IMG/VR virus record: IMGVR_UViG_3300025133_005514
Span: 1-64,000 of that record
Direction: 5' to 3' (one strand)
Origin: a virus
DNA: 64,000 nt
Shown: positions 4,821 through 32,745 of the stretch, piece after piece
Position numbering within the stretch: the stretch's first letter is position 1
Layout of the letters: each line of letters starts with the position of its first letter
Program-made: the position numbers and the translations under genes
The notes under the pieces: generated by a model
Seen by the model: only the letters and a program-made list of their open reading frames with translations
The model's database searches: none
What the model was told of the DNA's origin: nothing

Positions 4821-4886
4821 TCTGTCTCTCCTTGCCTGATTGCTCTTGACTGTGCCAGATTCTCCAACACTTGAAGGAGTGTACTC

Positions 4887-5765: not shown

Positions 5766-6079
5766 TGGGCGCGGTGTCTGACGGTGGCAAGGAGCACCAG
5801 CGTCAACAGGTGATGCTGACGCTGCTCGCGTCGAGCCCCGGCTTCATCGAGCGGTACATGGGCAACCGCCTCCTGGGCTCGACGCCCGAGGCAGCGGCGC
5901 TCGGGGCCCTCTTGAGCGGGGGGCTTGCCGCCGAGCACGTCCTCCAGTTGCAGGGCGACAAGCACGACCTCGACACCGCTCGCGCCCAACGTGGGGTCAA
6001 GGCTGTCGCGAAAGCCCTCGCCCGGATGGTTGAGGCGAACCTCGACCGCACCCTCGGGACCATGCCCACGGTTCAGTAG
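5765..6079 (+). CDS. Possible small terminase subunit (104 aa)
   Basis: The start ATG shares one base with the upstream TGA (TGATG). The 104-residue protein is helical, with an alanine- and leucine-rich centre (TPEAAALGALLSGGLAAEHVL) and no cysteine. It ends immediately before the TerL-1 start, the classic position of a small terminase subunit, and its size is on the short side for that role. The assignment is by position only. Confidence 0.5.
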   Translation: MGAVSDGGKEHQRQQVMLTLLASSPGFIERYMGNRLLGSTPEAAALGALLSGGLAAEHVLQLQGDKHDLDTARAQRGVKAVAKALARMVEANLDRTLGTMPTVQ

Positions 6080-8086: not shown

Positions 8087-8094
8087 GGAGCAAG

Positions 8095-10017: not shown

Positions 10018-10848
10018 GTGGCGAAGCCGCACATCGAGATTGGTGAGCTCCGCAAGTCTGGCCCCGTCGAGGTCGTGGCTGGGCGACTCTCCCAGTTGTG
10101 GCAGACACTGACCGGGGACGGGGTGAACATCAAGTCCACGGACTCGTCCCTTCCGTCGGGCGCGCTTCAGGTCTGGAAGTTCGGCCACAACGCGGCGGTG
10201 GGCACCTCCTACGAGACGATTTGGATCGTCGGCGGTCTCTACCCCTGGGGGTCGTGGAAGGCGTGGGATGACGCAACCGGCTCGGTCGTGACACTCAAGT
10301 CTACCGACGCTGCGGACACCTCCGTCGAGGTCGCGTGGGAGGGGCTCGGCGCCGACGGTGAGCTTGTCTCGGGAACGACGACGACGGACGCTGTGGACGG
10401 GACCACGGGCGTAGCGGTCGCCACCAACCTCAACCGACTACATCGCGCGTATCGAGTCACCGCCGGCACATCGACAGGCTCGCTCCAGCTCACAGTGGGT
10501 GGCACCGTCATCGCGCAGATTGAAACCGACCTCGCGGCGACCCAGTTGGGTCTGTACACCGTCCCGGCCGGGTACACCGCCTACCTCCAGAGTCTGGACA
10601 TCGCCGTGGACGACAACAGCGACGGACTCATCCAGTTGATGACTCGACCTGACGGGGACGCTTTCTACTCGCGCAGCGGGGGGCTTATGGTCAGCGGGGC
10701 GACGAGGATCAGCTACGCCAGCAGCGGATGGTCCTCGGGTCTTCCCTTTGTGGAAGGTACGGACATCGACGTGCGCGGGGTAAAGGTGTCCGGTGGCGGA
10801 TCGCCCTTGATGTCGGTCAACTTCCACCTGGTATTGGATTCAGACTGA
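10018..10848 (+). CDS. Virion structural protein, beta-rich (276 aa)
   Basis: The start GTG follows the portal stop directly. After a short helical N-terminus the sequence is rich in Thr, Ser, Gly and Val, with QVWKFGHNAAVGTSYETIW and GGLYPW near residues 50-80, a pattern I associate with structural proteins of environmental podoviruses. Residues 150-276 read as beta strands (YTVPAGYTAYLQSLDIAVDD). It may be a head or receptor-binding accessory protein. No capsid or scaffold gene follows this first terminase/portal pair in the window, which is unusual. The stop shares bases with the next ATG (TGATG). Confidence 0.65.
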   Translation: MAKPHIEIGELRKSGPVEVVAGRLSQLWQTLTGDGVNIKSTDSSLPSGALQVWKFGHNAAVGTSYETIWIVGGLYPWGSWKAWDDATGSVVTLKSTDAADTSVEVAWEGLGADGELVSGTTTTDAVDGTTGVAVATNLNRLHRAYRVTAGTSTGSLQLTVGGTVIAQIETDLAATQLGLYTVPAGYTAYLQSLDIAVDDNSDGLIQLMTRPDGDAFYSRSGGLMVSGATRISYASSGWSSGLPFVEGTDIDVRGVKVSGGGSPLMSVNFHLVLDSD

Positions 10849-12799: not shown

Positions 12800-12994
12800 C
12801 TACGACCAAACGCGGTCGCCGCTGTACTTGTACAAACCTTCCTTCGGCTTGCTCGATCTGCGTAACCACTCTTCAAATCCACAAGCACACCGCCGCCTCC
12901 ACCATGGAGGGGCGATGGCTGTCTCGGGGTCGTAGTCTCCGAACCGCTCCCAAGCTGTATAGCGGTGCTTGGTTCCGCTAAACCTGCATGTCAC
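12800..12994 (-). CDS. Small Cys-containing protein (64 aa)
   Basis: The start GTG 12992-12994 overlaps the TGA of the HNH gene upstream. The product has an early cysteine (MTCRFSGTKH), a tryptophan-rich centre (PPWWRRRCACGFEEWLRR) and a tyrosine-rich tail. A CxC pair followed by Gly could bind metal. Short proteins of the type HRYxAWxxxxxC-CGxxxW are common in phages and have no known role. Confidence 0.5.
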   Translation of the reverse strand: MTCRFSGTKHRYTAWERFGDYDPETAIAPPWWRRRCACGFEEWLRRSSKPKEGLYKYSGDRVWS

Positions 12995-13548
12995 GGGATG
13001 TTCTTCCAGGTCTTCCGAACAACCACGGCCCAAATGTTGGAAGCAGAAACCCCGAAGCCCCGAGCTAGGTCGGCCCTGCTCGCCCCCAACGCTGAAAGCC
13101 TTCGAATCGTTCTGACGTCCTTTACAGAGAGCTTGGCCCTGTGGTGCCGACGGCCGCTAGCCTCGCGACCATGCTTGGTCCGGTCTGCGGCGTTCTCTTT
13201 GTGGGTTCCCCACTTAAGGTTGGTGGCGTGGTTGTTGGACGGGTCGCCATCAAGGTGGCGGCAAATCCGTCCACCCCTGGCCTCCCCGCTGAACCCCTCC
13301 AGGACCAGGTGATGTATCTGCTTGCAGCGCCTTGTCCCACACCTGGACAGGTGGACGCGACCGTACCCCTTGACCACGTCAGGCTTCAGTGTCCTCCCAT
13401 ACCTCTTTCGCTTAATTACGGAGCCCCATCGGCCCATGGCCATAACCTCTGAGGTCAGGCTCCTCACTCGTCCGCATGATGAAACCTCGTAAAGACCAAC
13501 GTAGCCCTCCACCGGAACCCACTCTTCTGACTTGCAACAATCGGACAC
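12991..13548 (-). CDS. HNH homing endonuclease with NUMOD4 and HTH domains
   Basis: The 185-residue protein has a NUMOD4 DNA-binding motif at its N-terminus (EEWVPVEGYVGLYEVSSCGRVRSL, residues 8-31), an HNH nuclease core (IHHLVLEGF, then CRHLDGDPSNNHATNLKWGT, with the histidine and asparagine positions of the betabetaalpha-metal fold) and a C-terminal helix-turn-helix (GASRADLARGFGVSASNI). Such free-standing enzymes cut DNA and spread their own gene. GTG 13546-13548 is chosen because GGGAGG lies 6 nt upstream; the longer frame lacks such a site. It is related in layout to the endonuclease at 31362-32099. Confidence 0.88.
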   Translation of the reverse strand: MSDCCKSEEWVPVEGYVGLYEVSSCGRVRSLTSEVMAMGRWGSVIKRKRYGRTLKPDVVKGYGRVHLSRCGTRRCKQIHHLVLEGFSGEARGGRICRHLDGDPSNNHATNLKWGTHKENAADRTKHGREASGRRHHRAKLSVKDVRTIRRLSALGASRADLARGFGVSASNIWAVVVRKTWKNIP

Positions 13549-13625
13549 AATCAACCTCCCGCTTCCTCTAAGGTACCACATCATTTCAGGACGATTGTGG
13601 CACCCTAGTGGAAGCGGCAGGCCAT

Positions 13626-14105
13626 CTAGACGGAGCCCTCGGCTACGGCTTCCTGTGCCTTGACCAGGGCTCGGGCTGCCGCCCCGGTGAACCGAGGCTC
13701 TTGGAAGCCGCCGGCCTTTGTCTTGACGTACATGGGGTGGATAGACTTCACCCACTGGAGCGTCGTCTTCCTCGCCACGTTGGTCCTCAGTCCAATGTGA
13801 TCAACCAGGTCCTGCATCGACAGGTTCCACGGAGCGCGCTCGCCGTCCTCCCACACGGTTCCGTCGGGACCGTTTAGGCCCTGGAGAACCTTGAGACGGA
13901 ACAACCACTCATCGAGGTTGGCCTCCTCGATAGAGCCCAGGTCTACCGACATGGTCTTCCAGATGAGGAGGTCGGTGGTCGGGTTCATCCGGGTCCACAC
14001 GCCCCCCTCACTCTTGAACCACTGGTCCCCCGGCTGCTCGGTTTCTACAGAGGTCTGCCAGACAACGGAGTCGGGCACGTCGGTCACGTTCCAGTTGAGA
14101 CTCAT
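13626..14105 (-). CDS. Hypothetical protein (159 aa)
   Basis: I do not recognise this protein. It has a tryptophan-rich N-terminal half (LNWNVTDVPDSVVWQ, then DQWFKSEGGVWTRM) and a helical C-terminal half with a basic DNA-binding-like stretch (GLRTNVARKTTLQWVKSIHP). The start ATG 14103-14105 lies 4 nt after the stop of the upstream gene. It is separated from the HNH gene by 77 nt that include the HNH ribosome site. Confidence 0.6.
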   Translation of the reverse strand: MSLNWNVTDVPDSVVWQTSVETEQPGDQWFKSEGGVWTRMNPTTDLLIWKTMSVDLGSIEEANLDEWLFRLKVLQGLNGPDGTVWEDGERAPWNLSMQDLVDHIGLRTNVARKTTLQWVKSIHPMYVKTKAGGFQEPRFTGAAARALVKAQEAVAEGSV

Positions 14106-17581: not shown

Positions 17582-18301
17582 GTGCTCCTTATCTCTTCTC
17601 TTCTCGTTGCCCTGTTGGGGCTCCTCTCTTTCAACATCTACAGGAAGGCCAACTCCACCGAGGATGCCTTCCTCAACCGGTTGGGGCAGTTCGTTCCTGA
17701 CAAGTACGAATGGCCCGACCCCCTGTCCCTGACGGAGGTTGAGGAGGTCAACATGGCCTTGCTCACCTCCGACGCCACCGACGTTCCTGCCGCCTTCAGG
17801 CTCATCCTGAGGCTGCTCGACACCGTCGAGGACTTGGAGGCCGACTACGGCATCCAGGAGAGGGCCCACAAGGACGAGGTCAAGCTCTTGACGGGGGTGC
17901 TGAAGCGGCGTAACGAACTGCTCGACTCCATCATGGAGGAGCGGACCACGGTGTTCACGGCGGTCAGCACGGCGAAGCAGGCTGTTGCTGAACTCCAGGA
18001 CGATCTGGACAAGGCCGGTGACTACTTCATCAAGGCCATGATGGAGGCCCCCTCGACGACCCATCAGGCTGGCATCACCGCCGATGCCCTGGAAGATCTC
18101 GACACCCTGGTTGGTCAGACCAACCGCGAAGGGGACGTCCTGAACCAGGCCGACGCCGACTTCTGGGCGATGCACGACAGCTTGTCTCAGGCTGAGAGGG
18201 GAGAGATTGACAGCATCCTCCCCCTCCAGACCTGGGAGGACGACCTGCTCGACAGCCTCGACAGCGACCTGAACGACTTCAACTTCTGGCCGATGGTTTA
18301 G
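17582..18301 (+). CDS. Membrane-anchored coiled-coil protein (239 aa)
   Basis: GTG 17582 follows AAGGA. The first 17 residues are hydrophobic (LLISSLLVALLGLLSF) and then positively charged (YRKAN), so the protein is either anchored in the inner membrane or carries an uncleaved signal. The rest is acidic and helical with heptad-like stretches (residues 80-150, e.g. LLTGVLKRRNELLDSIMEERTT). It is the first gene of the MoxR/VWA operon and could tether that machine to the membrane. No family recognised. Confidence 0.6.
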   Translation: MLLISSLLVALLGLLSFNIYRKANSTEDAFLNRLGQFVPDKYEWPDPLSLTEVEEVNMALLTSDATDVPAAFRLILRLLDTVEDLEADYGIQERAHKDEVKLLTGVLKRRNELLDSIMEERTTVFTAVSTAKQAVAELQDDLDKAGDYFIKAMMEAPSTTHQAGITADALEDLDTLVGQTNREGDVLNQADADFWAMHDSLSQAERGEIDSILPLQTWEDDLLDSLDSDLNDFNFWPMV

Positions 18302-18398
18302 CGGTCTGTGCTGCGAACAGCGGGGCGGGGATGTGCTTCGCTCCGCTGTTCCACTGCACAGACGGCAATCACGCCAACCAAAACTGGAGACTGAGGTT

Positions 18399-18581
18399 AT
18401 GGGAACTCTTGCAGACGAACTGTTGCGAGCCGTTGAGGGCGTCATCAACGATGCCCTTGTCAACGACGGCATCGACGACCTCCCCGGAAGAGTGGACGAC
18501 CTTGAGTGGAAGCTCAAGCGGGTGCAGAACACTGTCAAAGAGCTTGACGAGCTTCTTGCCGCCCTGAAGGTGGAGGACTGA
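18399..18581 (+). CDS. Small coiled-coil protein (60 aa)
   Basis: ATG 18399 is preceded by TGAG and begins MGTLADELLRAVEG; the longer frame from 18333 has an unnatural basic N-terminus. Residues 30-58 form a clear coiled coil (VDDLEWKLKRVQNTVKELDELLAAL). The stop shares bases with the MoxR start (TGATG), so the two are made together and may interact. The 97-nt gap before it (18302-18398) holds no feature that I could support. Confidence 0.55.
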   Translation: MGTLADELLRAVEGVINDALVNDGIDDLPGRVDDLEWKLKRVQNTVKELDELLAALKVED

Positions 18582-19438
18582 TGAACATCGACCTCCCCAC
18601 CCTGGAGCGTCAGATTCGGGAGCAGGGCTATGTGCCTCGCCGCTCCGAACTCTTGATGCTGGCAGATGCACTGACTGTTGACAGTCGTGTTGCCGGCATC
18701 CGCTCCGTCCTTCTTGAGGGGCTGCCCGGTACCGGCAAGTCGGCGTTTGCCGAGGTTGTTGCCTCGGTCCTTGGATGCCCTTTGGTTGTCCATCAGCTTC
18801 ATCAGTGGAGCGATGCTGACGACCTGTTTGTCGGTGTTGACGTCGCTGCTGCTGTCGGCGGCGAGGCTGACAAGGTCCGACAGGATGGCGTCCTTGCCGT
18901 CACCGCTCGTATGTCGGAGAAGGGCGCTGTCATTCTCCTTCTTGACGAGGTGGACAAGACCCATGAGCGGTGTGAAGCACTGCTGCTGGACTGGTTGCAG
19001 ACGGGGCGAGTTCCGGTCAAGCCCGGTCACCACGTTCGCACCGTCATCAGCAACGTCATCGTCTTCCTGACCAGCAATGCTCAGAGGGACTTGAGCGATG
19101 CCCTGATGCGGCGCTGTGCCAGGGTCCAGATGGGGCTGCTCCCCTTCGATACCCAGGTCGGCATCATTTCCGGCAAGACCGGGCTCCCCAAGGGGTTCGT
19201 CAAGGTGACCTGGAAGGCGGCGATCCACATCGCTCAGTCCGAAGGGAACAAGGGGCTCTCCCTTCAGGAGGGGCACCGACTGGTCGGAACCATCGTCCGG
19301 TTCGCTGAAACGATGGATGATATCAGGCTCATCCTCTCAAGCTGGGCTGCACGAACCCCCAAAGGCCGGAACACGGCGGCAACGACTGACGTCTCTGCTG
19401 TCTGGTCCGAACTCAACAACGTCCGAAAGAGCGGGTAG
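18581..19438 (+). CDS. MoxR/CobS-type AAA+ ATPase
   Basis: The 285-residue protein has Walker A GLPGTGKS (residues 47-54), Walker B VILLLDEVD (118-126), sensor 1 in VFLTSN and an arginine-finger region ALMRRCAR, in the order of MoxR-family AAA+ proteins. Such ATPases work with a VWA-domain partner as chaperones or metal-chelatase-like machines (for example CobS with CobT), and a VWA gene follows at 20197. The C-terminal lid (residues 195-285) is helical. It starts by ATG coupling to the coiled-coil gene. Substrate unknown. Confidence 0.88.
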   Translation: MNIDLPTLERQIREQGYVPRRSELLMLADALTVDSRVAGIRSVLLEGLPGTGKSAFAEVVASVLGCPLVVHQLHQWSDADDLFVGVDVAAAVGGEADKVRQDGVLAVTARMSEKGAVILLLDEVDKTHERCEALLLDWLQTGRVPVKPGHHVRTVISNVIVFLTSNAQRDLSDALMRRCARVQMGLLPFDTQVGIISGKTGLPKGFVKVTWKAAIHIAQSEGNKGLSLQEGHRLVGTIVRFAETMDDIRLILSSWAARTPKGRNTAATTDVSAVWSELNNVRKSG

Positions 19439-19442
19439 GAAC

Positions 19443-20105
19443 ATGAACCAGAACGAATTCAACGACTTCATCAACGATGCGTTGCATAGCCTCATGAGGG
19501 TAGCGGCTCCTCCCATCCCCGGCACGGAGTCCCTTGAGGACTTCACGGAGGAGGAGGCTCTGGACCTGGGGTTGCTGTTCGTCGGTGACGACCCCGACCC
19601 CTCGACCGGATGCGGAGAGAGCGCCCTCCGAACCCCCTTCCACACCCCCTCCAGCCCCATCGAGGATGCCATCGCTGTCAACCTTGTTGGCGACACCCAC
19701 CCCGAGGAGTTCGAACGCTTCATGGAGCGGTTCGACGAGGCTCACAGCATCGCCCTGAGAGGTGACTACGTCTCCTTCCCCCATCTGACCCAAAGGGTGG
19801 ACCTGGGCAACGGCACCTTCCGGGTCATCATGCCGTTCGTCGGCCATATCGAGCACGAAGAGGACGGTCCCCACGACGACGAGTGTCAGTGGGTCCATGC
19901 AATGGACTTCGACCTGGGGGTTCTTCCTGCTTCCTGCTTTGAGCGGCTTGGGGACAACCCCGAGAGGCTCGCCGAGGCGAAGGCTGTGATGGCAGAGGTT
20001 GATGGCAACAAGGCTGTTGCCGATGCGATGACGAACATGGCCGAGGAGTACAGCCTTCCCGAAGGGGTCCCGATGACCTTCGGGACCATCGTCGGCGACT
20101 GCTAG
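19443..20105 (+). CDS. Hypothetical acidic protein between MoxR and VWA genes (220 aa)
   Basis: The start ATG 19443 lies 4 nt after the MoxR stop with AGGA in front. The protein is strongly acidic, with a helical N-terminus (NEFNDFINDALHSLMRV), a Pro/Ser segment (residues 55-75) and a later beta part (VDLGNGTFRVIMPFVGHIEHEEDG). Its place inside the pair suggests an adaptor or substrate of the ATPase. A strong hairpin follows its stop. Confidence 0.6.
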   Translation: MNQNEFNDFINDALHSLMRVAAPPIPGTESLEDFTEEEALDLGLLFVGDDPDPSTGCGESALRTPFHTPSSPIEDAIAVNLVGDTHPEEFERFMERFDEAHSIALRGDYVSFPHLTQRVDLGNGTFRVIMPFVGHIEHEEDGPHDDECQWVHAMDFDLGVLPASCFERLGDNPERLAEAKAVMAEVDGNKAVADAMTNMAEEYSLPEGVPMTFGTIVGDC

Positions 20106-20124
20106 CAGTCTTCCCTTTGCCGCA

Positions 20125-20159
20125 CTGCCCTGGGGCTTCTCTCCGGGGCTCCAGGGCAG
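20125..20159 (+). terminator. Strong hairpin between the acidic gene and the VWA gene
   Basis: CTGCCCTGG (20125-20133) pairs with CCAGGGCAG (20151-20159) across a 17-nt loop. There is no T-run after it, so it may be an RNA-processing or stability element that lowers VWA expression rather than a full terminator. Confidence 0.45.
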
Positions 20160-20196
20160 GCGATAGAGGGTAGGCAAAACAGGAAGGGAGAGGGTG

Positions 20197-21897
20197 ATGA
20201 GCGAGCATAAGAAAATCTGGAAGCTCCGGGAGATTCAGTCTCTCCTTAGCAAGGGTCCGTCTACGGATTTTGGGTCCTGCTATCCGGCCTACTATGAGCC
20301 GACCACTGGGGAGCGGGTTTACCTTCCTCAACTCCGGGAAGCTGGCAACCCCTGGCCTGGAGGCAATTGTGAGCTGAGTGAGTACCTCCGCCGCATTGAC
20401 CAGCGAATCAGCAAGTACGGACCGAACGCCGAGTACGAGGCCCACCGTCGTTGGGAGGAAGACCACGGCGACGACAAGCCCATCAACCACAACGAGTCGA
20501 AGGGAGACAGCGATGAACAAGCCGATGAACTAAACAAGGGTGGAGGACAGGGCGAATCGCCAGAGAGCGGAGCGAACGCACAGTCAGAGACTTCTGCACA
20601 AGGACAGGGACAGTCCGAGGGCAGCGGCCAGACGATGGGCAAAAACGAAGCTTCCAACACCGGACACTCCGGTGGGCCCACAAGCAGTGGTGGGTCTGGC
20701 GAGGGGAATGGGCAGACAATGGGGCAGCCGTCGTCCAACGGCAGTCCAGGAAAGAGCCCAGGTAGTAGAGAAGGCCGCTCCAGCGACTCCGAGGGATTCG
20801 GAAAGCAGGGAGACAACGCCGGCCAGCCGAAATCATCCAACCAGTCAGACGGCCGACAAGGTGTCCAGACTGAGAAGAACCGAAGCTTTGGGGAGGGGGT
20901 TGATCGCCCCAGCTCCGAGGGCCGAGACAACACCCTTAAGGGTGGGTTGGACGACGACGGTAGGAGACGCGGTTTCCCAACCGTGAAAACTCTGGATCCA
21001 GGAGGGGACGCTTCGACACCCTTCTTTCCTTACGAGGGAACTCGGGGGCTGCATCAGACCATTGCGGAAAGCGATGACTCTGGTGTGGCCCCCGCACCCA
21101 CCTCCCGAATGGCTCTTGAGGAGTTTAAATCCCTCTTTGAAGCCATTCAGGAGGACGGTGGGTTGCACACAGCCCGAAGCATCAACAACAACCCCGGCGG
21201 CGTCACCCAAAGCATGATTGGGGACGCCTACGGATTCGCTGCCAGGATGCCCAAGAAGGATATTCGGAGGGTGAAGCAGCTTATCGACCGCATGTTCAAG
21301 TCCTTTGAGCAGGGCACCTTCGGTGAGTTCGTTCCCCGCATCGACCCCACCAAGCTGGTCAAGGAGCTTGTGGGTAAGAGCTACCGGCTTGGACGGTGCG
21401 CCGAGGAGTCTCAGGAGTCAGGGCTTAAGGTCCTCCTTGTGGATAACAGCGGGTCCTGCCACTCGATTTGCGGACCGGCTATGGCGGCTTGTATCGAGCT
21501 TGCCAGGGCCGACCCTGACATCGTTATTTACGTCCACTCCAATGGGTGGGCCACAGGGGATGCCTACCGGGACGACCTGATTGGTGTCAGGGCTCATGAG
21601 GTTGTAGGGATTCGGCGAGGACACGGCATTGACTCCATCGACCTGAAGGGTGTGAACATTGCCGGCGTCGTCGCCTTCGGGGACTGGGATGCGGTCGACC
21701 TCTATCAGCAGCTTGTAGAGGTGGCTCCGCTGATTTGGATCGACCCGTCGGACGATGCGAACGCTTGGCGAGGCGAATCCTGTCACTCAATCGTGGAACA
21801 CAAGAACACCCTCTACATCCCTTGCATGGACTGGAGCGCCCCCCTGGGCTGGTCTGCGAAGGCGATTGACAAGGCTTTGGCTGAGTCGGGGAGGTGA
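20197..21897 (+). CDS. CobT-like VWA-domain protein with long disordered insert (566 aa)
   Basis: ATG 20197 is preferred over GTG 20194 because AGGAAGGGAG lies at proper distance. Residues 1-95 form a charged N-terminal domain, residues about 95-255 are a Gly/Ser/Gln/Asn-rich disordered segment with repeated GQTMG-type units (two copies), and residues 300-400 are helical (MPKKDIRRVKQLIDRMF). The VWA domain follows, with the MIDAS motif DNSGS starting at Asp416 and a later GDWDAVDL. VWA partners of MoxR ATPases bind metal and substrate. Together with the ATPase at 18581 it recalls CobS/CobT and phage homologues, although no cobalamin genes are near. Confidence 0.82.
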   Translation: MSEHKKIWKLREIQSLLSKGPSTDFGSCYPAYYEPTTGERVYLPQLREAGNPWPGGNCELSEYLRRIDQRISKYGPNAEYEAHRRWEEDHGDDKPINHNESKGDSDEQADELNKGGGQGESPESGANAQSETSAQGQGQSEGSGQTMGKNEASNTGHSGGPTSSGGSGEGNGQTMGQPSSNGSPGKSPGSREGRSSDSEGFGKQGDNAGQPKSSNQSDGRQGVQTEKNRSFGEGVDRPSSEGRDNTLKGGLDDDGRRRGFPTVKTLDPGGDASTPFFPYEGTRGLHQTIAESDDSGVAPAPTSRMALEEFKSLFEAIQEDGGLHTARSINNNPGGVTQSMIGDAYGFAARMPKKDIRRVKQLIDRMFKSFEQGTFGEFVPRIDPTKLVKELVGKSYRLGRCAEESQESGLKVLLVDNSGSCHSICGPAMAACIELARADPDIVIYVHSNGWATGDAYRDDLIGVRAHEVVGIRRGHGIDSIDLKGVNIAGVVAFGDWDAVDLYQQLVEVAPLIWIDPSDDANAWRGESCHSIVEHKNTLYIPCMDWSAPLGWSAKAIDKALAESGR

Positions 21898-21960
21898 CTT
21901 ATCGGGAAATTCCTATGGGATTCCGGCGGTTCCCTACCGTTTTCGCTACGGCAAGCTCTG

Positions 21961-22143
21961 TTGGGTGTCCAGTCCGCAAGACGGGCCGACAACCTTCAGA
22001 TGATTTGCAGAGCGACCATAGAGGCTTACAAGATTGCTGAGATGTTCGGGTGCCAGCTTCGCTTCGTTGCCGGCCAACCACACTCAACCATCGTCAACAT
22101 TACCGGCTCCGTCAACGGGACTTGGCTGCTCTACGAGGACTAG
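21961..22143 (+). CDS. Small hypothetical protein (60 aa)
   Basis: A short frame reads well only in its second half, from ATG 21999 (MICRATIEAYKIAEMFGCQL to GTWLLYED), where it looks like an alpha-beta mini-domain. A TTG at 21961 would give 60 residues; no ribosome site is clear for either. A frameshift in this stretch is possible, because another frame (21896-22003) reads protein-like just before it. Low certainty. Confidence 0.35.
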   Translation: MGVQSARRADNLQMICRATIEAYKIAEMFGCQLRFVAGQPHSTIVNITGSVNGTWLLYED

Positions 22144-22219
22144 AACGACAACACACATCATAGAACGATTGAGGGCGGTTGGGGAGCCTGAGACTTGGGC
22201 GAAGGAAGGGGTTTAGGCC

Positions 22220-23212
22220 ATGTCATACAAAGAAGAAGCGCTTGGGAGTCTCCGTTACCTTAAGGAGCACATCTCCATGCTGGAGGATGAGGTTCTCTGC
22301 ATCGAGGAAGGGGGCGACAACGTCGCTGAGGAGCTTGGGTTCGACGACCTTGACGACCTTAAGGACCAGTTGGGAAACATCTGTGGCAACAACTACGACA
22401 GCGCGGAGGCTGTGGAGCATCTCTGGAACACCATCAACAACCACGGCCTTCACTATGAGGCCGACCTGGTTAACTGGCTTGACCATGAGGGCTGTGGAGA
22501 TCACGCCGAGCCCGCCACCAACGACAACGACACCATCAAAGCCTTCCTCCGCAAGCTAGAGGGCAAAGGCATCCTCTTCGTCAACAACGACCTGGAGGAG
22601 TTCTCCTTCAAGAACTTGATGGACATTGCTGACGAGAGGGAGGCCGCCAAGGTCCCCGACCTGTTGACCGGCCTCCGAGCGACGGACGGCGGCTACCTGT
22701 GGAAGCTCCAGAAAGATGTGCTGTTCCCAAAGACTGACGGGGAGTTTGGACTCAACGGTTGTCCTGATGGGGTCCGGGTTGAGGTCGGCTTTGGGGCGCA
22801 GCCTCAGAACCCTTGCTGGACCGGTAATGTGGTCTACGTGATGAAAGAGGGGTCGCTTGTGAACGAGGCGACCGACCAGCTTATGGGCCGGGGGGTCCCT
22901 GTTGTTGAGAAGTGGCGCTGGCTTCCCAGTGCTGGGCTGAAGCCCTCCGGCCAGCGACCATGTCTTCCCGACGGCAAGCTGTTCCAGGACGGGGAGTGGC
23001 TTGAGATGTTCTGGGATGAGGGATCCTGCCCCGGGAGGGGCAACGGTACCGCGTGCTTCTACCAGCCCGGTACCGGGAAGAGTCTTGGCTCCGACCTTTG
23101 TAGTTGGAGTACGGACATGGCCTTGTCCACCAACTGGCTTTGGGAGGTTGTCAGCCCAGACCGCGCAAAGGAGCTTCAAGCCCGGCTCGATGAGTTTGAA
23201 GCCGGCCGGTGA
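22220..23212 (+). CDS. Hypothetical protein (330 aa)
   Basis: The N-terminal 110 residues are helical and acidic (SLRYLKEHISMLEDEVLCIEEGG). Residues 115-330 include many cysteines and tryptophans (WLEMFWDEGSCPGRGNGTACFYQ, LCSWSTDMALSTNWLW), which gives the look of a beta-rich binding domain. It is the fourth large gene of the MoxR/VWA operon. I do not recognise a family. Confidence 0.6.
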   Translation: MSYKEEALGSLRYLKEHISMLEDEVLCIEEGGDNVAEELGFDDLDDLKDQLGNICGNNYDSAEAVEHLWNTINNHGLHYEADLVNWLDHEGCGDHAEPATNDNDTIKAFLRKLEGKGILFVNNDLEEFSFKNLMDIADEREAAKVPDLLTGLRATDGGYLWKLQKDVLFPKTDGEFGLNGCPDGVRVEVGFGAQPQNPCWTGNVVYVMKEGSLVNEATDQLMGRGVPVVEKWRWLPSAGLKPSGQRPCLPDGKLFQDGEWLEMFWDEGSCPGRGNGTACFYQPGTGKSLGSDLCSWSTDMALSTNWLWEVVSPDRAKELQARLDEFEAGR

Positions 23213-23423
23213 CCTCCGAGCCTCCCCCGATGGGGGGCAGTGGGTTAAGGCATAAGTCTTGAGGCTTCTCCCCAGGAGCTTCCCCCAGCCTCCCTAACGG
23301 TTGAGGCTAGGAACACCCCAAAAACGCCGAATCCGGCTAAGTCCCCGGAATTCCGGCGGAAATCCGGTGTGTCATGCTCGTTTCTCAACCGGCCCGAAGT
23401 TGGCCAAACCGGAGAAAACGAAA
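23213..23423. other. Non-coding leader before the 23424 gene
   Basis: This 211-bp gap holds a CCCCC/GGGGG hairpin at 23224-23236 just after the previous stop, the second copy of the GGCATAAGT element, CCAAAAACGC at 23318-23327, and the ribosome site GGAG at 23411-23414 for the next gene. It looks like a promoter or processed leader of its own. Confidence 0.5.
23249..23265 (+). repeat. GGCATAAGT-type element, copy 2
   Basis: GGCATAAGTCTTGAGGC matches copy 1 at 17389-17405 (15 of 17 bases) and is followed by the same CCAAAAACGC word 69 nt later. The shared context before two rightward genes suggests a phage promoter, operator or RNA-processing signal. Confidence 0.45.
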
Positions 23424-24116
23424 ATGGCGAAATCCCCTATCTACTGTGACGACATCCCCCAGGTTGGAGACTTCAGCGTCTCCGTCTCGACGTACAACCT
23501 GGACCGTGGCGTCTCCATCGTCCCCTCCCGTCACTACGTGACTCGGGACGGTCGGGCCGGAATGTCCTGGATGACCGGAGGCAAGTACCCGCTCTCCATC
23601 GCCGATGCGAAGGTGGTGCGGGACCTGCTGATCAAGGCTTGCGCCGTCGCTGATACTCAGCAGGCGAAGGTCAACGAGCGCCGCCGCCAGGAGGCGGAAG
23701 CGGTCACCCTTCAGCCTCAGGGCGCTTCCGGTCACACCGGAGCCGCTGGCCCCGTCAAGACTCCGGTGTGGTTCGCCGATCCGGTCAAGGGTCAGCCCGT
23801 CCAGACCACGCTGGACGCCGTCCCCGCTGGCGGTCAGTACATGGCCCTCGACCAGAAGGGCGGATGGCAGACGAAGCCTGCCCCCGTCGCCGCCCCCCCG
23901 GCGATGCCGCCGGCCATGCCGGGGATGCCGGCCGCTCCGGCCATGCCGACCGTCGCCGCCGTTCAGCCCGCTTCCTTCGACCCGATGCAGGTGAAAGGGA
24001 ACGCGACCAACGTCATGAAGCGGCTCGCCCTGGATTCGTTCGGCGTCGCCCATGACGGTGTCAAGGGTGCAGCCCTGACGGCGCTCCTCAAGACCGCCCA
24101 GAAGGCGAACGCCTAA
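23424..24116 (+). CDS. Hypothetical protein with Pro/Ala/Met-rich linker (230 aa)
   Basis: ATG 23424 follows GGAG by 9 nt. Residues 1-85 are a compact alpha/beta segment (FSVSVSTYNLDRGVSIVPSRHYVTRDG). Residues 100-190 are low complexity with repeats of Ala-Pro-Met (PPAMPPAMPGMPAAPAMP), and a helical C-terminus follows. Its own leader with the GGCATAAGT element suggests separate control from the MoxR operon. No family recognised. Confidence 0.6.
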   Translation: MAKSPIYCDDIPQVGDFSVSVSTYNLDRGVSIVPSRHYVTRDGRAGMSWMTGGKYPLSIADAKVVRDLLIKACAVADTQQAKVNERRRQEAEAVTLQPQGASGHTGAAGPVKTPVWFADPVKGQPVQTTLDAVPAGGQYMALDQKGGWQTKPAPVAAPPAMPPAMPGMPAAPAMPTVAAVQPASFDPMQVKGNATNVMKRLALDSFGVAHDGVKGAALTALLKTAQKANA

Positions 24117-24373
24117 TGGCCGCTCGTACCCACATCGCCGTCAACGTCTCCGACGTTCGTGACGATCACAAGGCGCTTAACGCGCTTTGCGTGGTCCCGT
24201 TGCTGTTGGCCGTTGCCTTCGAAGCTGTAGAGGATGCCGAGCGGCGGATGGTCGTCACCGCTGCCGCCGATGACTCCGGGGCGGTCGCCGTCGAAGCGTT
24301 CAACCTGGGTTGGGCTTGCGCTTCCTACTGGGATGCCCGGAGCGAAGCCCTCATCGGTGGGGAGGGTTCCTAG
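24116..24373 (+). CDS. Small hypothetical protein (85 aa)
   Basis: The ATG shares a base with the previous TAA. The protein is alanine- and valine-rich, alternating beta and helix (HIAVNVSDVRDDHKALNAL, VVPLLLAVAFEAVEDAE). The hydrophobic core could be membrane-associated but is interrupted by charges. Function unknown. Confidence 0.55.
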   Translation: MAARTHIAVNVSDVRDDHKALNALCVVPLLLAVAFEAVEDAERRMVVTAAADDSGAVAVEAFNLGWACASYWDARSEALIGGEGS

Positions 24374-24374
24374 C

Positions 24375-24458
24375 GTGGTCGCCTTCGCTTCCCTCTGCAT
24401 CGCCCTTGCCCTCGTCGGTTCGATGGACTGGTCCCGCACCGTTCCCGCCGATGAGTGA
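24375..24458 (+). CDS. 27-residue hydrophobic miniprotein
   Basis: GTG 24375 begins 1 nt after the previous stop. The peptide is one hydrophobic segment (VAFASLCIALALVG) with a charged tail (SMDWSRTVPADE), the shape of a single-span membrane miniprotein. The upstream gene has a GGAGGG ribosome-like stretch at 24360-24366 at suitable distance. It is the last gene before the terminator. Confidence 0.45.
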   Translation: MVAFASLCIALALVGSMDWSRTVPADE

Positions 24459-25770: not shown

Positions 25771-26022
25771 TCAGAGGTCCTCGTGTTCGAACGGGTCCAC
25801 CTCGGCAGCCGTAGCCTCAGTCGGTACGGGGGCGGGCTCCAACCATCGGGCGAGCCGCTCCGTGCATTTGGCGCACAGGTCAACGCGGATGGTTTCGGGA
25901 GCTATGTCGCCCCTGTGGTCGCCGCGCATCACCGGAAGGTCCAGACACATCCACCCAGACCTGCGGTCCGGGGGGCTCTGCTGCGCTTCGCAGCGGTCGC
26001 ATCGCAGAACTTGAATCCTCAT
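25771..26022 (-). CDS. Zinc-binding miniprotein after ruvC (83 aa)
   Basis: ATG 26020-26022 overlaps the ruvC stop (ATGA). Two cysteine pairs, CDRC near residue 8 and CAKC near residue 50, predict a zinc ribbon. The C-terminal 30 residues are Pro/Glu-rich and probably disordered. It closes the leftward recombination operon and may modulate a DNA enzyme, as zinc-ribbon miniproteins are common there, but this is inference. Confidence 0.6.
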   Translation of the reverse strand: MRIQVLRCDRCEAQQSPPDRRSGWMCLDLPVMRGDHRGDIAPETIRVDLCAKCTERLARWLEPAPVPTEATAAEVDPFEHEDL

Positions 26023-26480
26023 CCCACCAATTCCTCTCGCAAGTGCTCCGCAATCCACAGAGCGTCAGCCTCGTTGTCGTCGGATGGGTCCACACCCCAT
26101 CGCTCTTTTGCGGCTTCAATCATCCGCTCCTTGTTGGCGTTGCCCTTGCCGGTAGCCAGCTTCTTCACCGAGCCGACGGGGCGGGCGGAGTACGCCTGCT
26201 CTCTGGCCTCGCACGCGCTGGTGATGACGGCGACGATCCCGCCATAGACGTGCGCTGCTGAGGTGCCCGCGTGTCGCCTGATCTCCTCGTAACCGACGAC
26301 GGCGTCGGGGTAGGCGTCCAGAAGTTCGCTGAGGTAGCGGCGGGCGCGCAGGTAGCGCATTCCGCCACCCTCGTGCCGCCTGGACGACAGGTCCCACACG
26401 CCAGAGCCCAGCCTAGCTCCAGCCTTGCCGAGCACGGCCCAGCCGCACTTGGTGCCTGGGTCGATGCCGATGACGATCAC
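26019..26480 (-). CDS. ruvC: RuvC-like Holliday junction resolvase
   Basis: From GTG 26478-26480 the protein is 153 residues, the normal RuvC size. It starts IVIGIDPGTKCGWAVL with the first catalytic aspartate at residue 7, has YEEIRRHAGTSAA with the conserved glutamate at residue 65, and SDDNEADALWIAEHL with the last acidic residues near 135-139. The enzyme would resolve four-way junctions from recombination before packaging. It starts by GTGA overlap with a 25-codon peptide gene, which supports this start over longer frames. Confidence 0.85.
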   Translation of the reverse strand: MIVIGIDPGTKCGWAVLGKAGARLGSGVWDLSSRRHEGGGMRYLRARRYLSELLDAYPDAVVGYEEIRRHAGTSAAHVYGGIVAVITSACEAREQAYSARPVGSVKKLATGKGNANKERMIEAAKERWGVDPSDDNEADALWIAEHLREELVG

Positions 26481-26554
26481 GGCGCCGCCCACGCCTGCCG
26501 CACGAGCGCCAGAAGGCACCCGAGGGTCGCGGGGTCTGAGAGGTCGGGGGTCAT
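26477..26554 (-). CDS. 25-residue coupled peptide upstream of ruvC
   Basis: ATG 26552-26554 overlaps the TGA of the zinc gene upstream and its own TGA overlaps the ruvC GTG. The peptide (MTPDLSDPATLGCLLALV...) may simply keep ribosomes moving to ruvC. Its length and hydrophobic middle also allow a tiny membrane peptide. Confidence 0.4.
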   Translation of the reverse strand: MTPDLSDPATLGCLLALVRQAWAAP

Positions 26555-26748
26555 GACAGAGCCTTCCTAGTAGCAATGCGGCAGCGCCGGCAGCTGACTT
26601 CGTCCTTCGTCTCTGTGTCTGCCATGGCTCCCTTGTGGACAACGTCCAGACCGCAAGCTGTCTTGAACAGTCCCAACCTGCCAGAGGTGGCGAGGTGGAC
26701 CTTCTTGCGGCCGTGGAAGCGGTAGCGGCGGGGCTTGAGGAGGCTCAC
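26551..26748 (-). CDS. Zinc-finger miniprotein (65 aa)
   Basis: GTG 26746-26748 overlaps the stop of the preceding gene. The product has a basic N-terminus (LLKPRRYRFHGRKKVHLA), one cysteine in TACGLD and a CRRC pair near the end: the HLxxxxxxxxTxCG...VSCxxC pattern of small phage zinc proteins. It probably binds nucleic acid or protein; role unknown. Confidence 0.55.
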   Translation of the reverse strand: MSLLKPRRYRFHGRKKVHLATSGRLGLFKTACGLDVVHKGAMADTETKDEVSCRRCRIATRKALS

Positions 26749-27959: not shown

Positions 27960-28158
27960 GGAGCCCCCGAATCTTTGCCAGGGCGTCCATCGCCCTACGG
28001 TTGGCTGCGGCCCAGTCCTTCACCAGCCGGTCCTCTGGTGGTGGCGGGGCCCCTGCGGCCACCTCCGTCGCGATGACGGAGGCGAGCGCGCTGGCTTCGC
28101 TGGAGGCTCTGGCGTAGTTGTTGTAGTCGCCCAGGTCCGGCCTAGAAGTGGGGGGCAT
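27940..28158 (-). CDS. Small helical protein between recT and methylase (72 aa)
   Basis: ATG 28156-28158 lies inside the end of recT (17-nt overlap). The protein is alanine-rich and helical (ASSEASALASVIATEVAAG, WAAANRRAMDALAKIRGL), with a Pro-rich turn in the middle. It may be a small DNA-binding or partner protein of RecT. No family recognised. Confidence 0.5.
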   Translation of the reverse strand: MPPTSRPDLGDYNNYARASSEASALASVIATEVAAGAPPPPEDRLVKDWAAANRRAMDALAKIRGLRERGRS

Positions 28159-29188
28159 CGTCGTCCCCCAGCGGAGCGTCGTCCGGCGGCCCGTCACCAC
28201 CGGGCGGCATCTCGGCCTGCTTCATCAGCCACTCCTCCATCTGCACGATGAGGTCGTTGCCCTCGTCCAGCTTGATGGACGGAATGCGGCGGCGGCCCAC
28301 CACGGCGTCCCAGGCGGCGCGGCGGTTGGACCGGTAGCCGTTGAGCTTGGCGTGGAGGGTGACGAGGCCGTTGCCGCTGGGCTCCGCGTCCACCTCGATG
28401 GGCTCGACGTCCATCACCTTGTCGGCCGGGTGTCCGGGGGCCAGCAGGCTGCTGCCAGCGGACGGCATGACTCGGCGGTCCTCCGACGTCAGCGCGGAGT
28501 TCAGGTCCTCCCCGCCCTCGGTGGCGATGGGGAGCATCTTGACCAGCCGGCGCACGGCCGTCTTCTTCGCCATCTCCGGGTAGTGGTCGCGCCAGGGGCC
28601 CCACTCTCCCTTGCTCTGCGTGTTCCGCATGATGCGGTTGACCTCGCCGACGCTCATGACGGTGAACTGGTAGCTCATGCCGTCCTTGAAGCGGGCGATG
28701 GCGTAGACGCGGGTGATGCGCCCCCGGTCCTCGTCGGTGGACGGGATGTGCTTCAGCTTCTCGTCCAGCCCCAACTCGTACTCGAAGAAGTCCTTCTCGT
28801 ACACGCACTCAGCCGTGAGGGTGGCCACCTCGCCGGCCCGCCGAACGAGGCTGATGAGCCCCCGGTAGCCGATGATGAGGGTGCACTCGCTGACCCGCTT
28901 CTTCTTGTTGTAGTGCGGCACCAGGTACGCCTGACCCAGGGCTCCGCCGGACGGGTCGAGTCCGTACTTCGCGGCCTCCAGCACCGACAGCAGGAAGCTC
29001 TGCGGGTCGCACTCCTGAAGCTTGGGGTTCTGCTTCCAGCAGGCAACAGCGATGCGCTGGAGCTTGTCGGCGGTGAGGTGGCGCGTAGCGACCTCGGTGA
29101 GGGCGGTGGTGATCGCCGGGGACTTGATGCGCTCCAGGAGCGCCTGCTCGCGGTCCCGCTTGGCGGGGACTTGCACTCGTTCAGCCAT
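28142..29188 (-). CDS. recT: RecT-like single-strand annealing recombinase
   Basis: The 348-residue protein matches the RecT family. LQRIAVACWKQNPKLQECDPQSFL is the N-terminal conserved block, followed by AAKYGLDPSGGALGQAYLVP, then CTLIIGYRGLISLVRRAG and YEKDFFEYELG. It pairs complementary single strands during phage recombination or repair and normally acts with a 5'-3' exonuclease, here the gene immediately upstream. The C-terminal 80 residues are acidic and Pro-rich. ATG 29186-29188 follows AGGAGA, with a 2-nt gap to the exonuclease stop. Confidence 0.88.
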   Translation of the reverse strand: MAERVQVPAKRDREQALLERIKSPAITTALTEVATRHLTADKLQRIAVACWKQNPKLQECDPQSFLLSVLEAAKYGLDPSGGALGQAYLVPHYNKKKRVSECTLIIGYRGLISLVRRAGEVATLTAECVYEKDFFEYELGLDEKLKHIPSTDEDRGRITRVYAIARFKDGMSYQFTVMSVGEVNRIMRNTQSKGEWGPWRDHYPEMAKKTAVRRLVKMLPIATEGGEDLNSALTSEDRRVMPSAGSSLLAPGHPADKVMDVEPIEVDAEPSGNGLVTLHAKLNGYRSNRRAAWDAVVGRRRIPSIKLDEGNDLIVQMEEWLMKQAEMPPGGDGPPDDAPLGDDDAPHF

Positions 29189-29190
29189 TT

Positions 29191-30324
29191 CTACTTCTCC
29201 TTGGGAAGGGTGATGAGATTCTGTCGGTCAACGTGCTTGAGGTGTTCTTCTGCGATTCCCTGAGCCTTGGGGGGTAGGGCCTCCAGCCATGCTGCGAGCC
29301 CGCCGGACTTCGGCCGCTTCGGCTCGAACGTCTCGGAGAAGTCGGCCCCCTCCTCCAGCGCTGCTGCGGCGATGGCCTGCCAGAGGTGGCCCCGGACCTC
29401 CTTGTCCACGTTCTTTCGGCTCCAGGTTCGGCCGGGGACGCGGTTCATGCCGAGGGTGGTTCCGTCCTCAAGCTCCAGAGGAGAGGTGCGCTCGCGGAGG
29501 CGGGCCATCAGGTCGTCCTTGGCCATGCTGGTCACGTGCTTGAGCAGCTGCCATCGGCGGTACAGGAGTTCGTCATCCTGGGTGCCGTAGGTCATGTCAC
29601 CAACCACCTCGGCCCCCTCCTGCGCCATGCAGTGGGTCCGGTACGGGCACCGCCCGCAGTGCTCGCCGGGGCGGAAGTCTCGCCCCAACTCCTCGTGCGG
29701 CACCTTGTCCCGCTGCACGCAGGCGGCAAACAGCGCCTGGGCCCTCTTGTGGAACCAGTCGGCCGGCTTCGCAATCTGCTGCCCGACCTTGAACCGGAGG
29801 TTCCAGTAGGTGAACACAACCTTGCCCACGGTCAGGTACTGGGCAACGGCCGAGCCGTAGGAGATAGCCTGAGGCTCGTTGTCCAGGTTGTTGTCGCTGG
29901 TCAGGCCCTGGGCCGTCTTCCAGTCGTCCACCATGGCGACACCCATGTCCGACCTGAAGCCGTCCGGGGTCACCGAGTAGTAGGTGCCGCTGGTGGGCTC
30001 CTCCTCGGTCCAATCCTCCACGACGCCCTTGTTGCCGATGCGGCCGTAGAGGGTTCGCTCGATGAAGTCGTTGTGGATACCGAGCAGCCCCATGTCGGCC
30101 GCGTTCTCGTACAGCTTCTCGCTGTCCCGCAACTCCACCACGGACAGGGAGGAGGGCGGCTCCGGCTGGTCGATACCCAACCCGTTCGCCTCCACCTTGT
30201 GGTGGACGTGTCGGCCTACCCCGTACCCAGACCAGTCGTCCGAGGGCTTGAGGCCGAGCCTCTGCCACAGGGAGCTTCGGGGGCACAGAGAGTCCCACTT
30301 CACAGTTGTGCTTCGCCACCTCAC
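29191..30324 (-). CDS. Cas4/AddB-like PD-(D/E)XK exonuclease with iron-sulphur cysteines
   Basis: From GTG 30322-30324 (GTGA overlap) the protein is 377 residues. It has early CP (C14), an AddB/RecB-type helix with RHVHHKVEANG, the nuclease motif DMGVAMVDDWK with Asp126, Asp134 and Lys136, and the QxxxY motif at Gln152/Tyr156. Three more cysteines, C223, C226 and C232 (CGRCPYRTHC), with C14 give the CxxC-x5-C spacing of the 4Fe-4S cluster in AddB and Cas4. It should chew DNA ends to make 3' single strands for RecT. This is the two-gene exo/annealase pair. Confidence 0.85.
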   Translation of the reverse strand: MRWRSTTVKWDSLCPRSSLWQRLGLKPSDDWSGYGVGRHVHHKVEANGLGIDQPEPPSSLSVVELRDSEKLYENAADMGLLGIHNDFIERTLYGRIGNKGVVEDWTEEEPTSGTYYSVTPDGFRSDMGVAMVDDWKTAQGLTSDNNLDNEPQAISYGSAVAQYLTVGKVVFTYWNLRFKVGQQIAKPADWFHKRAQALFAACVQRDKVPHEELGRDFRPGEHCGRCPYRTHCMAQEGAEVVGDMTYGTQDDELLYRRWQLLKHVTSMAKDDLMARLRERTSPLELEDGTTLGMNRVPGRTWSRKNVDKEVRGHLWQAIAAAALEEGADFSETFEPKRPKSGGLAAWLEALPPKAQGIAEEHLKHVDRQNLITLPKEK

Positions 30325-30557
30325 TGAACCAACCCCACTACCTTCTCTACGAAGTCTGCAATCTTCATGTCGCCTCGTTCGATGTGGTTCCATTTGCCCT
30401 TGCCGTGAGGGCGGTAGGAAGCGCTCTCGTCGGCCACCACGGCCACGCGCTCGTTGTCGCTGTAGCGCTTGATGATGGTCGTCGGCCCCTCGGCCAGAGC
30501 CCAGAACTTGTTCGGGATGACGTCCTCGACGTAGACGTATGTGCGTCCGCCAGCCAT
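30321..30557 (-). CDS. Hypothetical protein (78 aa)
   Basis: ATG 30555-30557 follows GGGAGGAG. The product is mostly beta (TYVYVEDVIPNKFWALAEGPTTI) with a basic HIERGDMKIADF segment. Its stop overlaps the exonuclease GTG. Such small beta proteins often act as DNA-binding or inhibitory partners, but there is no direct evidence here. Confidence 0.5.
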   Translation of the reverse strand: MAGGRTYVYVEDVIPNKFWALAEGPTTIIKRYSDNERVAVVADESASYRPHGKGKWNHIERGDMKIADFVEKVVGLVQ

Positions 30558-30730: not shown

Positions 30731-31365
30731 GGGGTCCACCCGTTGCGCTCGGCTTCGATAGCGACCGCAACCATGGCCTCCTGGAGAGCGTCCTCCTGGG
30801 CTCGGTGAGCCTGGGAACCCCAGCGAATCTCGTGCCCCCTGCCGTTGAGGTAGGAGATGGTCTCCGTGAGAGACGGCCACTTCCATTCCGCACCCTTCGC
30901 CTTGGCCCACTCAGGCGCGGGGGGCAGAGCGCCGGCCGGTCCCATGATTCCCATCGCGGCCTCCATGATGCACTCACCCGGGACGGTTTTCGTCCTGTCG
31001 AAAATGTCCCACGGGGAGGCTCCGAGGAAGCGGAAGTCGAAGGCTTGATTGAAGGCCCGAAGCTTCAGGTCGCCGCCGTAGCGGACCGCGATGCGCTCGA
31101 CCCATTCAGCCAACCGTTCGGCTGCGGCCTCCTCTTCCAAGCCCTCCTCAAGGACCTGCTCCCGGCTGATGCCGGTGATTTCGAAGGCTCGCTTGGCCTT
31201 GGGGTCGTATAGGACGTCCTTGTCGTGCTTCACGAAGAAGCCGATGGGGTTCTTGACGAGCCCCTCCCCAGTAACAACGACGGCTCCCACCTCGACAATC
31301 ACAGGCTCGTAGCCGCTCTTGGGGAGACCTGTTGTTTCGGTATCGATACAGACGAACGGAATCAT
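30727..31365 (-). CDS. DnaQ-like 3'-5' exonuclease
   Basis: The N-terminus FVCIDTETTGLPKSGYEPV holds the ExoI motif DTETTGL, AVKYGGD...NQAFDFRFL gives an ExoII region and HRAQEDALQEAM is the ExoIII HxAxxD motif. The 212-residue length suits a free-standing DEDD exonuclease (proofreading or RNase T-like) that trims single-stranded 3' ends. ATG 31363-31365 overlaps the homing endonuclease stop. No DNA polymerase is present in the window, so it may act on recombination intermediates rather than proofreading. Confidence 0.82.
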   Translation of the reverse strand: MIPFVCIDTETTGLPKSGYEPVIVEVGAVVVTGEGLVKNPIGFFVKHDKDVLYDPKAKRAFEITGISREQVLEEGLEEEAAAERLAEWVERIAVRYGGDLKLRAFNQAFDFRFLGASPWDIFDRTKTVPGECIMEAAMGIMGPAGALPPAPEWAKAKGAEWKWPSLTETISYLNGRGHEIRWGSQAHRAQEDALQEAMVAVAIEAERNGWTP

Positions 31366-32099
31366 TCTTTCTCCCGGGTTGCGAGCGGGTGCCTAAGGGC
31401 TTCTTCTGCCTCGTGGGGCGAAATAGCTGGCCCCGACACTCGGGCCCTCCACGTCCTCCCCTGCTTAACGTCTCGGATGGTTCTTTCTGAGACACCCATC
31501 CGGCGGGCGAGAGCATTGTTTGGCTCTCCTGAGCTTCTTATTTCACTCACAGCCTTCCAGGCAAGCTTGGCCGTACCCCTGTGGTGGCCTCGGTTTCTGA
31601 TCATGTCTGCCATATTTTCGGCCTGGGTTCCCCATCGGAGGTTTTCGACACTGTTGTTCAACGGGTCATCATCCCAGTGGCGGGCGACGTACCCCTCTGG
31701 CCTGGGGCCAACGAACACGTTAAGGACCGCGATGTGAGACCTGAGATACGCGCTCTTAATGCGTCTGCCATGCACAACCACGGCCAGTCCAACCCCGGGG
31801 TAGCGCCCGCGAAGAGAAAGCTTGCGTACCACCCCCCTTGTCATCCTGGTTCGCTCTCCAGATTTGTGGTGGACGAACCTAACCCGCCTGGGAAGCGACT
31901 TGAACCGCCCAAGGTCCGAGACCTCGTACACCCCCAGAAAGCCAGGCACAGGTCGCCACCTCTCTCGCTCCTCCGCCCGCTCGTAACACGCGAGGCAGAG
32001 CCCTTGCAGCGGCCGGCAAAGCGGGCTGTGGTTGATTGGATCTTCCTCGTTAGGTTGGCCGCAGGTTTTACAGGACGGGGTACCCTCTACCGTGGGCAT
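31362..32099 (-). CDS. HNH homing endonuclease with NUMOD4 and zinc N-terminus
   Basis: From ATG 32097-32099, which has AGGAGG 6 nt upstream, the protein is 245 residues. An N-terminal cysteine pair (CKTCGQ and CLAC) is followed by NUMOD4 (ERWRPVPGFLGVYEVSDLGRFKSL), the HNH core (SHIAVLNVFVG then ARHWDDDPLNNSVENLRWGTQ) and a C-terminal HTH (NALARRMGVSERTIRD). An upstream ATG at 32174 in frame would add 25 residues. It is inserted between the DnaQ gene and a zinc-protein gene and is related in layout to the enzyme at 12991. Confidence 0.87.
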   Translation of the reverse strand: MPTVEGTPSCKTCGQPNEEDPINHSPLCRPLQGLCLACYERAEERERWRPVPGFLGVYEVSDLGRFKSLPRRVRFVHHKSGERTRMTRGVVRKLSLRGRYPGVGLAVVVHGRRIKSAYLRSHIAVLNVFVGPRPEGYVARHWDDDPLNNSVENLRWGTQAENMADMIRNRGHHRGTAKLAWKAVSEIRSSGEPNNALARRMGVSERTIRDVKQGRTWRARVSGPAISPHEAEEALRHPLATREKE

Positions 32100-32175
32100 A
32101 GCGAACCTCCTTTGTTCGTCGCCTGCGCGCTGGACCTGGTCGTACAGCGGCGCGGGGTGTCCACACAAAATCATG

Positions 32176-32504: not shown

Positions 32505-32745
32505 TAGTTTGCAAACGCTGGACGCGAAGCCTTTTTTAATTTGCGGTTGCTCGGAGGCTTGTGTGGGCGTAGCTTGCACGGGCTGTTGCGAAAGCGACGG
32601 CTCGGCCCGCCTGGGTTTCTGCTCTGCCCTCGCCCCCTCCCAGGGGGGCGGGGCTACGCGGAAAAAGCGGGAAGCAGAAACGGCGGAGACCTTCTCCACC
32701 GACCATGAATTCGGAAGCCGCCAAGCGGCAGTGGAGAAGTGCGCC

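Follow-up and report, generated by a model that had tools for sequence, protein, structure and literature searches.

The gene cluster at positions 17582-24458 of a phage genome record raises the question of what a MoxR-class AAA+ ATPase and a VWA protein do together in a phage. The record is IMG/VR record IMGVR_UViG_3300025133_005514 (73,074 bases), of which a 64,000-nt part, referred to here as the window, was analyzed. An earlier interpretation made from the letters alone (hereafter, the sequence-only reading) had placed the two genes in one operon with a membrane-anchored coiled-coil protein, a small coiled-coil protein, an acidic protein, and a Cys/Trp-rich protein, and had proposed that this exact set could be a chaperone that remodels host or virion proteins or a counter-defense machine. 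The analysis described here led to the conclusion that the MoxR/VWA family is real and recurrent, occurs almost without exception as a two-gene unit, and is apparently undescribed; phages were already known to carry MoxR/VWA pairs, and this family is the new part.

The open reading frames (ORFs) of the sequence-only reading were recovered at their original positions, and its MoxR-type AAA+ protein was confirmed. The first core gene (18581-19438, + strand) encodes a 285-aa ATPase that exceeds the Pfam AAA_5 cut-off of 22 bits with a score of 59.4 (E 5e-16), matches other AAA models as well, and carries Walker A (GLPGTGKS) and Walker B (LLLDEVDK) motifs. Its core motif residues are invariant in a 13-row alignment. 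The protein is 50-57% identical to its counterparts in the nearest phages, G001 and G003, and among plasmids it matches proteins of Gloeobacter morelensis pGMOR1 (34.6% identity, 8e-27) and Thermovibrio ammonificans pTHEAM01 (35.7% identity, 3e-22). Used alone as a query, it retrieved nothing useful from viral contigs, and in the phage collection its matches were ClpA-like or short, none better than E 6e-4.

The second core gene (20197-21897, + strand) encodes the putative VWA/MIDAS adaptor, a 566-aa protein consisting of an N-terminal region, a disordered low-complexity linker of ~200 aa, and a C-terminal VWA domain, which as modeled spans 21100-21894 (+ strand). Because no match was found in Pfam, PHROGs, or PADLOC, the identity of this protein rests on homologues. 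The gene after MoxR on pGMOR1 and pTHEAM01, annotated as a 'hypothetical' protein of 541-545 aa, aligns with it pairwise at E 3e-13 and 1e-11, over a region that includes the MIDAS and a GDWD-type motif. The window motif DNSGSC aligns with the DxSxS of the homologues, and both D-x-S-x-S-C and G-D occur unchanged in all 20 aligned rows, which upholds the intact MIDAS that had been claimed for this protein. Single-sequence searches with the VWA protein of viral contigs, phages (tblastn), and solved structures gave nothing useful, nor did a tblastn search of phages with the VWA domain alone at E up to 10.

The VWA domain model, with a predicted local distance difference test score (pLDDT) of 70.7 and a predicted template modeling score (pTM) of 0.69, has the strand-helix alternation of a VWA domain, and its top Foldseek matches are the NorD VWA in two NorQD complexes (E 0.02 and 0.04). 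Among the VIA fold matches listed, the top ones are the Rea1-MIDAS/client structures 6qta and 6qtb, with Z 7.2 (171 residues, 4.4 A) and Z 6.8 (163 residues, 4.5 A). Rea1/Midasin resembles the pair in being an AAA+ plus MIDAS remodeler; unlike the two-gene pair of the window, it is a single giant polypeptide that acts in ribosome assembly. Weighing against the fold assignment, Z stays below 8, unrelated Rossmann-like folds score nearly equally (Z 6.7), and the Foldseek E-values are not significant by themselves, so the motif is the main basis for assigning a VWA domain. The full-length model (mean pLDDT 55.9) performed less well than the domain alone, giving mixed Rossmann-like Foldseek matches and no clear viral match.

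Profiles built from the plasmid homologues retrieved one VWA locus and then 34 and 23 MoxR loci in viral contigs, the two MoxR sets overlapping in some contigs. Records were assigned to the family if a VWA gene was present or if their MoxR grouped with those of VWA holders in the MoxR tree; L026-L042 and L061-L064 (21 loci) represent other MoxR groups. In 25 of the 29 records carrying this MoxR, a VWA gene follows it on the same strand, and in 22 of these 25 the two genes are within 250 bp of each other or overlap. Where no VWA gene follows, either the contig ends within 181 bp after MoxR (L011 and L059) or MoxR itself is shortened, to 138 aa in L021 and 175 aa in L058; the VWA profile, searched against whole records, was positive in 23 of 27 and failed to find the gene in these same four. 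The sequence-only reading had suggested looking for recurrence in unrelated phages, and the linked pair does recur in many viruses that are unrelated to one another. The window MoxR falls in a supported group (99/99) of the MoxR tree, whose 19 rows comprise 15 from records with a VWA gene and those of the four incomplete records. Across the whole tree the family label is not one clean clade, requiring 6 changes of which at least 5 are forced; fragments and long branches (L060, HCTV-2, L061-L064) account for part of these. The VWA membership of L060 is weak (E 6e-8), and this locus falls among the other MoxR groups.

The family is distributed among phages plus two plasmids, of cyanobacteria and Aquificota. 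A scan of genome contigs yielded at least one cellular locus with VWA among the matches listed, L043, from a metagenome-assembled genome of Proteobacteria; there the pair (4298-7585) lies in a 994-kb contig, is followed by what appears by eye to be a repressor-like gene, and perhaps belongs to a small integrated element. A plasmid search with the Gloeobacter VWA protein retrieved only itself. On pGMOR1 (L003, 4608-8765), a gene annotated as type I-D Cas3 and a DNA methyltransferase gene precede the pair. Downstream of the pair in L007 (8741-13806) come a small gene held in common with pTHEAM01 and then genes for an SNF2-type helicase and a PAPS-reductase/DUF3440 protein.

Recurrence of the pair does not extend to its companions in the window. 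As described by the sequence-only reading, these genes encode a membrane-anchored acidic coiled-coil protein (17582-18301, pI 4.1), a 60-aa coiled-coil-like ORF (18399-18581), an acidic protein between MoxR and VWA (19443-20105, pI 4.2, 45 D+E of 220 residues), and a 330-aa Cys/Trp-rich acidic protein belonging to no family (22220-23212, 9 Cys, 11 Trp), all on the + strand. The whole cluster is on one strand with mostly small intergenic gaps; promoter-like and terminator-like matches were no more frequent than in shuffled sequence. The stretch 23424-24458 is set apart from the rest by 211 bp, and within it ORF 24234-24458 is without support and lies in a different frame from the overlapping ORF 24116-24373. 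Sensitive BLAST of the window neighbors against the 29 loci detected no homologue of the membrane/coiled-coil, small coiled-coil, acidic, or 330-aa protein, nor of the two genes after the 330-aa gene, and a tblastn search of phages with the 330-aa protein gave nothing useful.

Portal, capsid, RecT, and nuclease genes of the window phage recur in its nearest relatives, G001, G003, and G018, and terminase does so in G001 and G003; MoxR is kept, the G018 copy being a fragment at a contig end. This synteny with MoxR retained indicates that the pair belongs to the phage group and that the other cluster neighbors do not. Between their MoxR and VWA genes, G001 and G002 (L044 and L045) likewise carry a further gene, which has no significant similarity to that of the window. 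Thus, the exact set does not hold as a unit, since the membrane/coiled-coil, small coiled-coil, and Cys/Trp genes are without detectable homologues even in the nearest relatives; of the neighbor conservation that had been proposed as a test, only the position between MoxR and VWA recurs. A third gene common to all members of the family was sought and none was found. Subsets do share small genes: a zinc-ribbon-like one in L012, L014, L015, L016, L018, and L020, another in pTHEAM01 and L007 (40% identical), and, as it appears by eye, one in the Gloeobacter plasmid and L056. It was concluded that the remaining cluster genes are phage-specific neighbors rather than machine parts, except perhaps the acidic protein at 19443-20105, a candidate clade-specific accessory.

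Two-gene AAA+/VWA units of tailed viruses have been described as cobST in passages of PMC8651126, where they are so read, and a viral CobST would recruit host CobN and thereby boost cobalamin synthesis. A weak match of the window MoxR to phrog_249 'porphyrin biosynthesis' (7.5e-9) is in keeping with such a role. The pair was not detected as CobS/CobT, however: the NCBIfam CobS model, whose cut-off is 558.55 bits, reaches 18.7, and CobT has no match. CobN was found in 0 of 27 records, which is compatible with hijack of the host protein, and, as the sequence-only reading had stated for the vicinity, the whole 73-kb record contains no CobN-type chelatase gene. A ribonucleotide reductase match occurs in just 1 of 27 records, one with a truncated MoxR, and the VWA profile does not match the VWA protein of HCTV-2, the only such protein compared (hhalign probability 0.7%). 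No test run identified the pair as CobST, so the plain cobaltochelatase that the sequence-only reading had named as its refutation was not borne out, and a CobST acting with host CobN is highly improbable.

A role in metal-centre insertion, in which the pair would serve as chaperone for a phage or host metalloprotein in the manner of CoxD/CoxE or NorQ/NorD, is very doubtful. The best NCBIfam match of the window MoxR is the MadB-type ATPase model NF047784 (4.6e-15), and in L012 and loci related to it the gene after VWA is small and zinc-ribbon-like. However, the score of 55.6 bits falls well under the cut-off of 475, two plasmid CoxD-linked ATPases score far higher on this model (259 and 286 bits), and the family has no constant metalloenzyme neighbor. 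Likewise, the MoxR-vWA-beta-propeller ternary systems offer a similar pairing of MoxR with VWA, but the bpMoxR domain of Pfam reaches 18 bits in the window MoxR, under its cut-off of 27.

Viral pairs of this kind have been described elsewhere, some of them as proposed virion-assembly chaperones. A MoxR-type two-subunit chaperone of a Bacillus phage appears in part of PMC2147016, AAA+/VWA pairs of haloviruses appear in part of PMC7911831, and sections of PMC7824862 and PMC7911831 propose a chaperone role for p618/p892 of Acidianus two-tailed virus (ATV) and for the pair of group 2.2 jumbo phages, each a viral MoxR with a VWA partner. By extension, the window pair might fold or mature tail or capsid proteins. 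The pairs in those sections are tied to virion assembly and the jumbo-phage VWA is fused to a metallopeptidase, whereas no N-terminal peptidase was detected by Pfam in the window VWA protein. Furthermore, the window pair lies outside the structural module, which runs from TerL to tail from 38 kb on, and the pairs of other phages sit among polA, ligase, single-strand annealing protein (SSAP), and exonuclease genes. With no positive evidence for virion remodeling, a role in assembly is quite unlikely.

The most consistent neighbors of the pair are genes of DNA recombination. RecT was found in 8 of 27 records (a search that excludes L025, G029), YqaJ in 4 of 27, ERF in 2 of 27, and Sak in 4 of 44, all four within the MoxR/VWA family. 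Overall, 14 of the 26 viral family records carry an SSAP (RecT, ERF, or Sak), in 13 cases within 8 kb of the pair, while RecT, ERF, and Sak were each found in 0 of 16 comparator contigs with other MoxR groups (16 of the 21 such loci, omitting L041, a 4-kb contig, and L061-L064). This enrichment is significant at the level of records (Fisher p 0.0002), and the placement of the SSAP gene close to the pair gave p 0.023 over 11 records under a uniform null. Clusters on one strand illustrate the arrangement: Erf-YqaJ-84aa-MoxR-VWA-zinc in L016, MoxR-VWA-zinc-YqaJ-RecT in L014, and polA-ligase-Sak-two further genes-MoxR-VWA in L022 (249-7894). Sak is also present in L023, L024, and L025, which are related to L022; the MoxR proteins of this group are 451-571 aa long with an N-terminal extension.

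In the window, RecT (28142-29188, Pfam RecT 3.5e-41), found in relatives too, and the adjoining PD-(D/E)XK nuclease (29191-30393, PDDEXK_1 1.5e-5; also in G001, G003, and G018) are accompanied by a RuvC-like resolvase (26019-26642, Pfam RuvC 3.5e-6), all three on the - strand, and by a primase-helicase (33831-35786, + strand). In G003, the VWA gene is followed by a homologue of window gene 32509-33834, which precedes the primase-helicase in the window.

Several observations weaken the connection to recombination. RecT and the nuclease of the window phage are on the opposite strand, 6.6 kb from the pair; 12 of the 26 viral records, several of them short fragments, have no SSAP of the three families, and in G015 the SSAP is 28 kb away. 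The 16 comparators represent few lineages, and the enrichment falls to p 0.25 when records are collapsed to rough lineages counted by eye. In addition, the uniform placement null ignores the gene modules of phages, and placement with RecT/ERF only (the first eight records) gives p 0.074. The neighborhood, drawn from few lineages, is therefore suggestive, a lead rather than proof. A literature search whose coverage did not include subscription papers and preprint servers found no MoxR-RecT or MoxR-single-strand-annealing functional unit in phages.

A machine for counter-defense or host takeover, acting by remodeling a host protein such as a nuclease or a defense complex, would fit the location of the pair in the early region and its presence on two plasmids, on one of which, pGMOR1, it is near the gene annotated Cas3 (CRISPR type I-D). 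However, PADLOC gave generic ATPase matches only, and the pair is conserved across the phage group while its other neighbors vary, unlike variable anti-defense cargo. The counter-defense function put forward by the sequence-only reading has no positive evidence and is unlikely; as with virion remodeling, the neighbors point instead, without proof, to DNA replication and recombination.

The chaperone/remodeler interpretation, in contrast, is supported. It is proposed, with somewhat less than even confidence, that the pair is a NorQD-like remodeler whose client acts in early phage DNA metabolism. Portions of PMC9976466 and PMC13036017 describe for NorQD a VWA finger inserted in the ring pore, twisting of a linker, and client carboxylates. 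The window pair resembles NorQ/NorD in combining MoxR with a linker-bearing VWA protein that has the NorD VWA as its top Foldseek match; it differs in having no respiratory client nearby and in a VWA identity of only ~12-13% by structural alignment. If the MoxR-class ring and VWA/MIDAS adaptor work like NorQ/NorD or the AAA+/MIDAS module of Rea1, the VWA protein would plug the MoxR ring, the MIDAS metal site would dock a carboxylate of the client protein, and ATP hydrolysis would twist or pull the long flexible linker, so that the client is remodeled. Judging from the gene neighborhood, that client would most likely be a phage or host complex for recombination or replication. On the other side of the balance, both the client and the MoxR-VWA interaction are predictions. 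The analogy for the mechanism is a good one, and DNA recombination or replication is the best-placed guess for the client. The narrower possibility that the pair loads, strips, or recycles the phage SSAP (RecT, Erf, or Sak) or an exonuclease/SSB partner is rather unlikely.

The record itself has a composite architecture. Two terminase/portal/capsid sets are present, at 6080-10848 in the window and at record positions 68248-71830, outside it, and a near-identical 669-bp repeat (99.6%; 10161-10829 and record 68379-69047) flanks a stretch of ~58 kb. This bracketed stretch contains the MoxR/VWA pair and is syntenic with phages G001, G003, and G018, so the record has the look of a phage that lies within part of a second phage or was misassembled with it. 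Running past the window end, record positions 54933-65405 form a single 3490-aa open frame with ~32% identity over ~1100-1300 aa to giant proteins of the same three phages. Two related NUMOD4/HNH endonucleases (12991-13755 and 31362-32174, both - strand; 37% identical) are probably homing enzymes.

MoxR/VWA pairs are widespread, but clients are known for few of them, and the present results indicate that cobaltochelatase should not be the default annotation for those of phages. A compact, mobile two-gene family that is often near a recombinase gene offers a tractable system, as the client may be a neighbor. If the narrower possibility of action on the SSAP or its partners is correct, phage homologous recombination would possess a dedicated AAA+/MIDAS remodeling layer, for which no description was found in these systems.

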